Source: Bacteroidales bacterium (GTDB lineage: Bacteria; Bacteroidota; Bacteroidia; Bacteroidales; UBA932). From it: a DNA stretch of 64,000 nucleotides. The position numbers and the translations under genes are program-made. This document shows positions 26,937 through 30,955 of the stretch, piece by piece (within the stretch, counting starts at the first letter, position 1; the number at the start of each line of letters is the position of its first letter). The notes below the pieces were generated by a model. The model was not told where the DNA came from. It saw only the letters and a program-made list of their open reading frames with translations, and did no database searches. The DNA lies in contig JAQWAL010000002.1 of assembly GCA_028707695.1 (NCBI GenBank), positions 62,001 through 126,000 on the forward strand, given 5' to 3'.

Positions 26937-27884
26937 ATGGATCTGTCAATTGTAATATCCCTTTTGAACGAAGAAGAGTCCCTCAAAGAACTGATTCCGT
27001 GGATAGACCGCTCTGTCAGGGATCATGGCTTTGAATACGAAGTAATATTGGTGGATGATGGAAGTACAGACAGCTCCTGGGAGGTGATAGAACACCTTGC
27101 TGCAGATTACCCCTTAAAAGGAATAAGTTTCAGAAGGAACTACGGAAAATCTGCAGCTTTGTACTGTGGTTTTGAAGCAGCTCAGGGAGATATTGTAATC
27201 ACCATGGATGCCGACCTTCAGGATAGTCCGGAAGAGATTCCTCATTTGGTAAAAATGATCAAAGAGCAGGACTACGACCTTGTTTCAGGGTGGAAAAAGA
27301 AAAGACATGACAGTTTCTTCGGAAAAAATCTTCCGTCCAAGATTTACAATGCTACTGCACGTAAGGTGACAGGAATAAAACTACACGATATGAACTGTGG
27401 TTTGAAAGCATATCGCAAAGAGGTTGTGAAGAATATAGAGGTTTACGGAGAAATGCACAGGTATATACCTTACCTTTGCAAAAACGCCGGGTTCACAAAA
27501 ATAGGTGAAAAGGCGGTCAAACACCAACCCCGTAAATTCGGGAAAAGCAAATTTGGAATGAACCGCTTTGTAAATGGTTTCCTGGATTTGCTTTCACTAT
27601 GGTTTCTCTCCCGCTTTGGAAAAAAACCGATGCATTTTTTCGGTCTTATAGGTTCAATGACATTTATTATTGGAGCCATTATTTCTGTTTACCTCATTGT
27701 ACAAAAGATAACGACTCAAGCCAAGGGACTTCCATTCAGGCAAGTAACAGACCAACCGCTCTTTTACATATCACTGGTTGCGCTCATTATAGGTATGCAG
27801 CTCTTTTTATCTGGCTTCCTTGCAGAACTTGTAAGCCGAAATAGCAGTGAAAGAAATATTTACAAAATCAAAAAAAAATTTTAG
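26937..27884 (+). CDS. Family 2 glycosyltransferase, polyprenyl-phosphate sugar synthase type
   Basis: 315 residues. GT-A fold GT2 domain (1-230): VDDGSTDSS, FRRNYGKSAALYCGF, the metal-binding TMDADLQDSP and the acceptor-side GLKAYRKEV. Two C-terminal membrane helices (about 232-258 and 275-300). This layout is that of dolichol/undecaprenyl-phosphate sugar transferases such as GtrB/DPM1-like enzymes, which load a sugar on a polyprenyl phosphate at the inner face of the membrane. The sugar cannot be told. Second gene of a two-gene unit. Confidence 0.88.
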   Translation: MDLSIVISLLNEEESLKELIPWIDRSVRDHGFEYEVILVDDGSTDSSWEVIEHLAADYPLKGISFRRNYGKSAALYCGFEAAQGDIVITMDADLQDSPEEIPHLVKMIKEQDYDLVSGWKKKRHDSFFGKNLPSKIYNATARKVTGIKLHDMNCGLKAYRKEVVKNIEVYGEMHRYIPYLCKNAGFTKIGEKAVKHQPRKFGKSKFGMNRFVNGFLDLLSLWFLSRFGKKPMHFFGLIGSMTFIIGAIISVYLIVQKITTQAKGLPFRQVTDQPLFYISLVALIIGMQLFLSGFLAELVSRNSSERNIYKIKKKF

Positions 27885-27949
27885 AATTTACTTTTTAGTC
27901 CCGTTTTTTTTTATACTTTTGATAATCTTTTCATGTAACAAACTACTAT

Positions 27950-29059
27950 ATGATTAAAACTTATTCTTTCCCCAGCGTTTACGAGTCAACATTAAGGGAC
28001 TTCACAACCAGCAATGATCCTATATTGGGTTTTTCCAAATTGAAATTCGACGGAGCAGACTACCTGGTAGGGCTTAAAGCTTTGAACGAGGGAATTTCCC
28101 CACATAAATCCATCAACCCTGCACCAGAAGACATTGATTACAAAATCATAACACAGGCAGCTTTGGTTGTGGCAAACAATGCACTTCAGTCAGAATCAAA
28201 AAATGGCAGGATACCAAAAATGGTTTTAACCACAGGCTTCCCATATGCGACATACCAATTCAATAAAGAAGAGGCAGAAGAGTACTTCAAAGAAGAGAAG
28301 GTTGTCGCTTACTACAAAGTTAACGACGAAGGTGAACAAAATTCTGAACAGAGGATTGTTTCTGTACAAGAGATCAACATAATTCCGGAACTATCCGGCT
28401 GCGACAATGCTATCAGGCACGGGGAGAATCCTGTTAATGGTAATTTTTTGGTTGTCAGTTTGGGATATGGTACTTGCGAAGGGGCTCTCAGTACACCGGA
28501 GGGTTTGTCGGTCCGCACATTGTTCAGCACACATGGTATAAGCTACCCCGTAAACCTTTTTGCCCAAGAGCTATCCAAACATACATACCTCTCAATGCGT
28601 ACAGAACATCAGATTGACCATCTTTTCACAAAGGGGTTCCTGTTTGTAAACCGCAAAAGAAGGGATTTCTACAAGGAAAAACAACTGGCATTGGAAATGT
28701 ACTACAACAACGTAATTTCACCTGCAATAAGAAGATACATTTCAGACCAGGACTTCGAATCATGCGAACAGCTCATACTTGTAGGAGGCGGAGCCAACCA
28801 CAAAGACTTGGTGGAACTTTTCCGCAAGGAGTTTGGAGAAATTATGACAGTCACAGTATTCGACTCGCCTGAAAAATGTGCCGCGACAGGTTATGCTATC
28901 TACTCAAAATTAAATCATACTGTAGCAACACGCGAAGGTGTATTTTCTACCGACGAAAAAGAGAAAACAGCATACCTGGGGATAGATATCGGAAATGCAA
29001 ACACATCTGTGTCCATATGCATGGAAGAGAGTAAACCTGCTCAAAACGGTTCAAACTAA
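27950..29059 (+). CDS. ParM/Alp-like actin-family ATPase, apparently circularly permuted
   Basis: 369 residues. The start MIKTYSFPSVYES followed by FDGADYLVGLKAL (33-45) matches the part of ParM/Alp proteins that normally comes after the first nucleotide-binding loop. A phosphate-2-like segment (VVSLGYGTCEG, 168-178) has Ser for the usual Asp. The adenosine motif LILVGGGANHKDL is at 275-287, and the closing helix CAATGYAIYS at 310-319. After a polar linker the protein ends with AYLGIDIGNANTSVSIC (341-357), a textbook phosphate-1 hairpin that belongs at the N-terminus. No coding sequence upstream could supply another copy. Preceded by a TACTTTTG box (27914-27921), followed by a bidirectional terminator. 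Likely filament-forming; role unknown. Confidence 0.8.
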   Translation: MIKTYSFPSVYESTLRDFTTSNDPILGFSKLKFDGADYLVGLKALNEGISPHKSINPAPEDIDYKIITQAALVVANNALQSESKNGRIPKMVLTTGFPYATYQFNKEEAEEYFKEEKVVAYYKVNDEGEQNSEQRIVSVQEINIIPELSGCDNAIRHGENPVNGNFLVVSLGYGTCEGALSTPEGLSVRTLFSTHGISYPVNLFAQELSKHTYLSMRTEHQIDHLFTKGFLFVNRKRRDFYKEKQLALEMYYNNVISPAIRRYISDQDFESCEQLILVGGGANHKDLVELFRKEFGEIMTVTVFDSPEKCAATGYAIYSKLNHTVATREGVFSTDEKEKTAYLGIDIGNANTSVSICMEESKPAQNGSN

Positions 29060-29098
29060 ATATTAGTTTACATTTAGGTAGGGTATTTCCTAAAGAGA

Positions 29099-29133
29099 GA
29101 AAAAAGCCGGCTAAACTTTTAGCCGGCTTTTTT
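29099..29133. terminator. Bidirectional intrinsic terminator
   Basis: AAAAGCCGGCTAAA pairs with TTTAGCCGGCTTTT with almost no loop, flanked by A and T tracts. It lies between the convergent actin-like and bactofilin genes and can stop both. Confidence 0.9.
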
Positions 29134-29153
29134 AAATATTATAACATTACCAA

Positions 29154-29555
29154 TCAGACATTTAATTTTTTATCGCTCTCGAGTGTTTTAAGGCTGTCTT
29201 CAAATTCCTCTGCACTGATAATCTTGCAGGATCCGTTGAACGCTCCCCCTTCCTCAATGAATATTTTATTACAGGCAATCTTCCCTTTGAATATTCCGGA
29301 TTTCCTTAGTCCAAAATGCTCCTTCAACAAAAGATTTCCCTCCATTTCTCCATAAATATCGCAAGTCCTGGCTATTGCCTCTCCATGCAAATGGGCTGAC
29401 TCTCCAATCACCAATTTCCCTGTAGTTGTTATTTTCCCTTCAAACAAACCATCTAACCTAATGTCTGCATTTGAATTCATTGTTCCATGGAACTCTGTTC
29501 CCGAAGATATCCTGTTTACCTCGTTTACCTGTGTTACCACCTCGTTTTTTGACAT
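29154..29555 (-). CDS. Bactofilin (polymer-forming cytoskeletal protein)
   Basis: 133 residues. A short N-terminal tail, then a right-handed beta-helix domain (about 18-112) with regularly spaced Gly and hydrophobic positions (SSGTEFHGTMNSNADIRLDG, GKLVIGESAHLHG, KIFIEEGGAFNG). This is the DUF583/bactofilin family, which polymerises without nucleotide and positions wall-modifying enzymes in other bacteria. It starts 12 bp after lpdA and is probably transcribed with it, converging on the actin-like gene. Confidence 0.9.
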   Translation of the reverse strand: MSKNEVVTQVNEVNRISSGTEFHGTMNSNADIRLDGLFEGKITTTGKLVIGESAHLHGEAIARTCDIYGEMEGNLLLKEHFGLRKSGIFKGKIACNKIFIEEGGAFNGSCKIISAEEFEDSLKTLESDKKLNV

Positions 29556-29566
29556 ATCATTGTAGT

Positions 29567-30955
29567 TTAAACGTGAATTACTTCGCCATGTGATGCTGCA
29601 GCAGCTTCCATAACCGCCTCACTCATAGTTGGATGTGGATGGATAGAATGCATAATGTCCTTTGCTGTTGCACCCAAACTTCTGGCAGTCACAATTCCTG
29701 CCAACATCTCGGTAACATTTGCTCCAACAAGATGAGCACCAAGTATCATATCGCTTTGCTTATCAATGAGCAACTTTACAAAACCATCCCTCTCACCCGA
29801 AGCAGAAGCTTTTCCGGATGCAGTGAATGGAAACTTCCCTACGTAATATTCTATCCCCTTCTCTTTCAATTCCCTCTCAGTGCTGCCAACCGATGCCACT
29901 TCCGGAGAGGTGTAAGTACAAGCCGGAATATTGGTGTAATCAATTGGTTTGGGATCCAGCCCGGCAATCTTCTCAACACAACAAATTGCCTCTGCAGAAG
30001 CAACATGGGCAAGAGCTGGTGTTGCAATGATATCCCCAATAGCAAATACATCTTCCATGGATGTGTGGTAAAACTCATCAACTTTGACCTTACCCCTTTC
30101 AGTTACTATATTGTTCTCTTCCAGCCCTAAGTTTTCTATATTGGAAACAACACCAACAGCAGACAAAACCTTGTCAACTTCAATGGTCTCTTCACCCTTT
30201 TTGGTCTCCACCAAAACCTTGCAACCCTCTCCCGATACATCCACATTCTTTACCTGCGCAGAGGTCATCACTTTGATACCCATTTTGCGGAAAGACCTGC
30301 TCAACTGTGCAGAGGCATCATCATCTTCAAGCGGAACAATATTTTTCAAATATTCAATCAAATAAACTTCAGACCCCATGGATCTGTAAAAGAAGGCCAG
30401 CTCACTGCCAATTGCCCCGGAACCAATAACAGCCAATCTGGAAGGAATGGAATCCGGAACCAGTGCTTGCCTGTATGAAATTATCTTATCCCCATCTATT
30501 GGTGCAAAAGGCAATGAATTTGCCCTTGCTCCGGTAGCCAACAAAATGTTCTTGGTTTTAAGTACCTCTTTGCTCCCTTGGTTGTCGGTCACCTCTACCT
30601 CCCCTTTTGCCAAAATCCTGCCATGTCCGCTGATTACCTTCACATTGTTCTTCTTGAAAAGGTATTCAATACCCCTGCTCATGCCAGATGCAACACCCCT
30701 GCTCCGTTCAACTACCTTTCCAATATCAACTTTGACCTCTCCTTCAATTGTAAAACCGTAATCTTCAGAACTCCTGGCATAGTGTAAAGCCTGCGCACTT
30801 TTAAGAAGAGCTTTGGTGGGGATACAACCCCAATTGAGGCAAACACCCCCCAATTCTGACTTTTCCACAACAGCCACATCCATACCCAATTGGGCAGCTC
30901 TTATAGCGGCCACATATCCTCCTGGTCCAGAGCCTATTATAATAATATCATACAT
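29567..30955 (-). CDS. lpdA: Dihydrolipoyl dehydrogenase
   Basis: 462 residues from ATG 30955 (an in-frame TTG lies two codons upstream). FAD-binding IIIGSGPGGYVAA, redox disulfide GGVCLNWGCIPTKALL, NAD-binding IGSGAIGSELAFF and the active-site His-Glu in HPHPTMSEAVMEAA. E3 component of 2-oxoacid dehydrogenase or glycine cleavage complexes; neither is in the window, so the partner is unknown. Lies 28 bp downstream of secA. Confidence 0.95.
   Translation of the reverse strand: MYDIIIIGSGPGGYVAAIRAAQLGMDVAVVEKSELGGVCLNWGCIPTKALLKSAQALHYARSSEDYGFTIEGEVKVDIGKVVERSRGVASGMSRGIEYLFKKNNVKVISGHGRILAKGEVEVTDNQGSKEVLKTKNILLATGARANSLPFAPIDGDKIISYRQALVPDSIPSRLAVIGSGAIGSELAFFYRSMGSEVYLIEYLKNIVPLEDDDASAQLSRSFRKMGIKVMTSAQVKNVDVSGEGCKVLVETKKGEETIEVDKVLSAVGVVSNIENLGLEENNIVTERGKVKVDEFYHTSMEDVFAIGDIIATPALAHVASAEAICCVEKIAGLDPKPIDYTNIPACTYTSPEVASVGSTERELKEKGIEYYVGKFPFTASGKASASGERDGFVKLLIDKQSDMILGAHLVGANVTEMLAGIVTARSLGATAKDIMHSIHPHPTMSEAVMEAAAASHGEVIHV

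Follow-up and report, generated by a model that had tools for sequence, protein, structure and literature searches.

The described proteins closest to the one analyzed here are actin-like ATPases of the ParM/Alp type (PF17989), including Alp12, pCBH ParM, and Dh-cParM1; PRTRC system protein D (TIGR03739); the chromosomal actin homolog MreB; and other actin-like proteins such as Ta0583, BeeR, and CorM. In canonical actins, an FPS-type segment comes after the phosphate-1 hairpin, and both termini of the actin fold lie in subdomain I. Ta0583, BeeR, and CorM are not known to depart from this canonical motif order. We are aware of no actin-family ATPase that is circularly permuted in nature. Neither a naturally permuted actin nor an actin-bactofilin gene pair was found described in the open-access full-text literature, a scope outside which most subscription papers fall.

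A gene in the window, as we call the whole 64,000-nucleotide stretch of Bacteroidales DNA analyzed, encodes a protein that shares features with each of these systems. ParM/Alp proteins are its best sequence match and have the same mid-chain motifs and catalytic Glu, but the window protein carries phosphate-1 at its C terminus, has its phosphate-2 Asp replaced, and is encoded chromosomally, without ParR/parC-like neighbors. PRTRC_D is matched over nearly its full length after the permuted order is undone, whereas the model itself is in canonical order and the permuted proteins score far below its cut-off and lie outside a recognized PRTRC cluster. Like MreB, the protein is a chromosomal actin homolog with three motifs that align piecewise, but these stand in permuted order, and a canonical MreB is already encoded in the genome. 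The likeness to proteins such as Ta0583, BeeR, and CorM is a fold match of the core of weak models. The fold family is already known, and it is the permuted topology and the gene partnership with bactofilin that are new to us. The features of the locus are as follows.

27950..29059, plus strand: gene for the putative permuted actin-like ATPase, an ORF of 369 amino acids with an ATG start and a Pfam ALP_N match.
27965..27985, plus strand: SFPSVYE segment, residues 6 to 12; P8, S9, and E12 are invariant in 32 sequences.
28388..28390, plus strand: Glu147 (IIPEL), invariant and aligned with the ParM catalytic Glu (PES).
28451..28474, plus strand: phosphate-2 loop VVSLGYGT, residues 168 to 175, with Ser170 in the usual Asp position.
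28781..28795, plus strand: adenosine loop VGGGA, residues 278 to 282.
28907..28975, plus strand: terminal part of the last helix, with the polar linker that follows it, residues 320 to 342.
28970..29029, plus strand: phosphate-1 hairpin AYLGIDIGNANTSVSICMEE, residues 341 to 360, at the C terminus, identified by sequence, alignment, and a rotation test.
29100..29133, no strand assigned: 15-bp stem-loop that has runs of T on each strand, between the convergent actin and bactofilin genes.
29154..29555, minus strand: bactofilin gene, 133 amino acids, the convergent neighbor and proposed partner (Pfam Bactofilin, E 3e-24).

The window protein begins with MIKTYSFPSVYE, at the FPSVYE segment (FPS being residues 7 to 9), and so has at its N terminus what canonical actins carry after the hairpin. 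Pfam ALP_N aligns residues 3 to 147 with model positions 17 to 145 (E 2.3e-10, above the cut-off), and the first 16 model positions, which correspond to the phosphate-1 hairpin, are absent from the N terminus. The hairpin, LGIDIGNANTSVSI, makes up the C-terminal part of the protein, where the polar linker leads into the hairpin and then into nine more residues; LGIDIGNANT occupies residues 343 to 352 (28976-29005). The ORF translation thus agrees with the first-pass annotation, which had the protein starting at FPS and ending with LGIDIGNANT, and the upstream sequence agrees with its further claim that no second phosphate-1 copy is encoded there. Only eight in-frame codons (SFHVTNYY) lie between a stop codon and the ATG, and the intergenic gap to the preceding gene, which encodes a glycosyltransferase, is 65 nt; hence, no hidden phosphate-1 loop is present upstream. 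Loss of an N-terminal phosphate-1 through a frameshift or a misassigned start was also considered and is ruled out by the upstream sequence together with the relatives described below.

In a rotation test, the C-terminal hairpin was put in front and the protein was rescanned with Pfam ALP_N. Rotation added 6 to 11 bits, raising the score from 41.3 to 47.1 for the window protein and from 53.1 to 64.3, 48.6 to 58.0, and 53.6 to 63.4 in three other pairs; the match, which starts at model position 17 in the native order, begins at position 1 in all four rotated proteins. A fifth pair (L016) had no reported ALP_N match, native or rotated. Controls with shuffled hairpins (n = 6) reached 52.9 to 57.3 bits against native scores of 53.1 and 53.6, a gain of 0 to 4 bits. 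With PRTRC_D, a full-length NCBIfam model for a ParM-like family, the match of L029 started at model position 21 in the native protein (27.9 bits) and ran continuously from 2 to 315 in the rotated one (32.7 bits), and that of L010 went from a start at position 50 (24.0 bits) to a continuous 2 to 315 (33.9 bits). Two members without a reported native match to PRTRC_D reached 28.7 and 24.1 bits when rotated, and L028 gained nothing.

When the family HMM was compared with solved structures, its match to MreB came in three pieces: positions 320 to 335 aligned with 14 to 29, 157 to 187 with 161 to 191, and 265 to 305 with 290 to 328; each piece is weak alone, and the three together stand in permuted order. 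BiP gave a similar result. An hhalign comparison with ten canonical ParMs covered columns 54 to 313 in the native order and 2 to 331 after rotation, and only this coverage grew, the score staying flat (69.20 to 69.21). Scores of native and rotated profiles barely differed in HMM searches of the PDB and against the genome's own MreB, the matches in both being too weak to tell the two orders apart.

The same order recurs in the relatives. A related-locus search returned seven relatives of the window locus at 66 to 78% identity. Relatives were present in 10 of 198 genomes of the order, 19 of 296 in a phylum sample, 3 of 100 of the family, and 4 of 295 in a class sample, each count taking in the window's own genome, and matches extend to several Bacteroidota classes. 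The permuted actin is a chromosomal family with a patchy spread through Bacteroidota, and two genomes of one group (f154) have two copies each. All 34 further full-length relatives that were read (L001-L007, L009-L016, L019-L034, and L075-L077; 35 to 78% identity) are permuted: their chains open at (F/I/Y)PS(V/I), and the pattern G[ILM]D[IL]GN[AS]xT comes last, followed by 10 to 20 residues or a longer tail. The first-pass annotation had proposed searching orthologs for the same order and had named an intact N-terminal phosphate-1 loop as the contrary sign; a second, N-terminal copy was looked for and found in none of the 34. This conservation excludes chance as the source of the order. Replacement divergence between the window gene and its nearest relatives is 0.16 to 0.26 per site with synonymous sites saturated, which indicates purifying selection on the coding sequence. 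As a separate observation, one genome (G030, contig C131) has a permuted actin gene broken by a frameshift and stops (L017/L018), and the copy in G144, of the same genus, is intact.

The rotation gains with ALP_N and PRTRC_D, the piecewise matches to MreB and BiP, the ParM profile alignment, and the order conserved in 34 relatives are jointly accommodated only by a permutation. At the level of sequence, we therefore regard circular permutation of an actin-like ATPase, as first proposed from the window alone, as close to certain.

The second recurrent feature of the family is its gene neighborhood. The product of 29154-29555 scores 85.5 bits with Pfam Bactofilin against a cut-off of 27.9 and is the only bactofilin found in the window's genome. 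Here the actin and bactofilin genes are convergent, not in one operon, and the stem-loop between them is, judging from its sequence, a probable bidirectional terminator shared by the two. Across the family, a bactofilin gene lies within 1.25 kb of the permuted actin gene for 18 of 32 genes (30 genomes), representing 8 of 16 lineages, where a lineage is a family, or a genus if the family was split, and lineages are not fully independent. The genomes in this count carry 0 to 4 bactofilins each, and proximity by chance would be expected at about 0.15% per lineage (naive Poisson-binomial P of about 2e-19). A bactofilin is also found beside the permuted actin where the surrounding contexts are unrelated, and Pfam confirms these neighbors. 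Both paralogs in the two-copy f154 genomes have a bactofilin of their own, and the gap between the two genes is 28 to 37 nt in three genomes of one genus. In the one of these three that was read, L071 (G445 contig C2, near 7580), a bactofilin frame opens within about 10 nt of the TAG stop of the actin gene and in the same frame; it has a possible GTG start, and an actin-bactofilin fusion is one stop codon away.

Linkage is not universal. No bactofilin lies near the permuted actin in 8 of the 16 lineages, and neither G144 nor G030, the latter with the broken actin copy, has a bactofilin match in its whole genome; bactofilin is thus not an obligatory partner. In another three genomes (f212), the bactofilin and the permuted actin are on different contigs. 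The three f212 proteins resemble one another in a short C-terminal peptide (RLGKFLKTGMW, HKFLISGTW), which might serve in membrane or partner binding. On a tree of 35 proteins, linkage is spread over the branches and requires six changes, at least four of them forced by well-supported branches, as would be expected if the link is ancient and disappeared from some lines or if it arose several times.

In Hyphomonas and Rhodospirillum, pairs of a bactofilin and an M23 peptidase (BacA-LmdC) are reported to govern the shape of the cell (PMC10945521). The permuted actin genes recall these modules in that bactofilin adjoins them and, at L067, an M23 peptidase does so too; there the permuted actin gene comes after that of the M23 peptidase and is followed by genes for a TPR protein and then a bactofilin. 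At both L067 and L069, these genes and a following AtpZ-like gene form an apparent operon, likely a morphogenesis cluster. An actin-like protein did not appear as a recurrent neighbor of bactofilin in the portions of the bactofilin literature covered, PMC10945521 included. The recurrence of the gene pair suggests a new, two-part actin-bactofilin cytoskeleton.

We propose, with a probability of roughly 0.6 for the whole, that the protein is a natural permutant of the ALP/ParM/MreB type that forms an ATP-binding filament and works with the adjacent bactofilin as an envelope scaffold. The first β hairpin of subdomain I, which contains the phosphate-1 loop, has been relocated from the N terminus to the C terminus, and the short junction after the last helix would let it insert in cis at the same position in the fold. 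The completed protein would bind ATP and polymerize, and its filaments, presumably in physical contact with the bactofilin polymer encoded next door, would build a cell-envelope scaffold with a morphogenetic role. Loss of the phosphate-2 Asp probably slows hydrolysis or makes metal coordination unusual, which would favor stable over dynamic filaments. The permutation would also bring a chain end beside the nucleotide pocket, where free C-terminal tails could bind a partner or the membrane in a nucleotide-dependent manner; L014 and L075 to L077 have long polar or Pro/Ala-rich tails after the hairpin. A wider version, in which the permuted actin coassembles with bactofilin throughout Bacteroidota and the hairpin, possibly exchanged between subunits, couples the nucleotide site to the C terminus and the partner, is a doubtful extension.

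The family suggests that an actin fold can be opened after the phosphate-1 hairpin, before the strand that follows, and it offers a natural experiment of evolution on how the state of the nucleotide is conveyed to the ends of the chain. We know of no earlier hint of a dedicated actin-bactofilin module; the recurrent linkage would be the first, and the pair could offer a testable approach to the Bacteroidota cytoskeleton, about which little is known.

In the 32-sequence alignment, phosphate-1 residues G344, D346, G348, N349, and T352, phosphate-2 residues G172, G174, and T175, and the adenosine GGG (279-281) are invariant. All three motifs are found, with little or no variation. Judged by the invariant phosphate-1 Asp and catalytic Glu, and by what these residues are established to do in ParM and actin, ATP or nucleotide binding is probably retained. 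The phosphate-2 position is different: Ser170 replaces Asp in VVSLGYGT, as the first-pass annotation had read, and the Asp is missing from the whole family (Ser throughout, except for Asn in L029). Given the known role of this residue in ParM and actin, hydrolysis is probably slow or altered. The earlier suggestion of altered hydrolysis thus stays plausible, now with a family-wide absence of the Asp behind it and an invariant ParM-type catalytic Glu alongside. The same absence would suit a degenerate actin relative that has given up nucleotide binding and whose only role is that of an adaptor, either structural or regulatory, for example on bactofilin. We consider this unlikely, as the invariance of Asp346, Gly348, Thr352, Glu147, GGG, and G172/G174/T175 is hard to explain without nucleotide.

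The junction before the hairpin bears on where the hairpin packs. In most lineages outside the window clade, exactly 17 residues separate the Gly of GYC in the last helix from the first phosphate-1 Gly; the exceptions are L029 (16), L010 (24), and L009 (33). In the window clade, this interval is about 29 to 31 residues long, and the linkers of L002, L003, and L005 contain a second GF. A terminal hairpin on a flexible linker, as in the window clade with its approximately 20 polar residues, could be donated in trans, completing the fold of the next subunit and giving a strand-exchanged polymer. Such a domain swap seems quite unlikely, since the constant 17-residue junction, helix end included, looks like a fixed cis connection and since the termini of actin folds sit together in subdomain I. 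Insertion of the hairpin in cis is the reading that we prefer. Two AlphaFold models had mean pLDDT values of 39.6 and 41.6, with about 25 in the hairpin region, from a shallow alignment of 8 sequences that are 66 to 78% identical; we attribute the low confidence to insufficient alignment depth and do not read it as a contrary answer. Partial confidence was confined to residues from about 145 to 318 and did not extend to the first 140 residues or to the hairpin at the C terminus. In these weak models, the core from about 145 to 318 matches Dh-cParM1, Ta0583, Alp12, pCBH ParM, and MreB, with Foldseek E values as low as 4e-6, and comparison of the model core with actin-like structures gave VIA Z scores of 8 to 10 with rmsd of 3 to 5 Å across 120 to 200 residues.

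ALP_N matches 27 of 32 members and MreB-like_C matches 32 of 32 (E up to 0.1), and these homologies, with the motifs, support placing the protein in the actin-like ATPase (ASKHA) superfamily. The window protein scores 16.4 bits with the curated MreB model, below the cut-off of 27. The best rotated PRTRC_D score, the 33.9 bits given above, compares with a cut-off of 214.8, and no PRTRC genes were recognized near the permuted actin gene. Assignment to the ParM family is opposed by the C-terminal phosphate-1 in 35 of 35 proteins and by the GT2 and bactofilin neighbors. The window's genome also encodes a canonical MreB, so the permuted protein is an additional actin; the MreB model has two other, remoter matches in this genome, probably DnaK and FtsA. 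A role in anti-phage defense was considered and rejected, with no PADLOC match.

That the nearest curated models are ALP_N, PRTRC_D, and ParM leaves room for a plasmid-type ParM segregation protein, permuted by happenstance and residing on the chromosome or on an integrated element. This is very unlikely: no adjacent ParR-like small gene or iterated repeats were found, and 27700-29700 contains no parC-like or direct repeats. Searches of viral contigs, phages, and plasmids returned no close relatives, only two weak plasmid ParM/StbA matches, and within its own clade the gene has fixed chromosomal synteny, its flanks being formed by thrS, DUF4199, and GT2 at one end and by bactofilin, lpdA, and secA at the opposite end (thrS, lpdA, and secA being names that we assume from sequence recognition). 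Finally, that there is no permutation, the protein having merely lost phosphate-1 and its C-terminal motif being a chance or unrelated hairpin, is scarcely credible, even though phosphate-1 and phosphate-2 hairpins look alike and an FtsA model matched the C terminus weakly and internally (model residues 179 to 217), because the hairpin is conserved in all relatives and restores the first 16 model positions on rotation, where shuffled hairpins fall short.

The same order of bacteria also contains a distinct actin-like protein with canonical motif order (L040; G139 contig C9), which begins with an N-terminal ISVDHGNKAIK and can serve as an unpermuted comparator. Its gene adjoins a probable serine resolvase gene.
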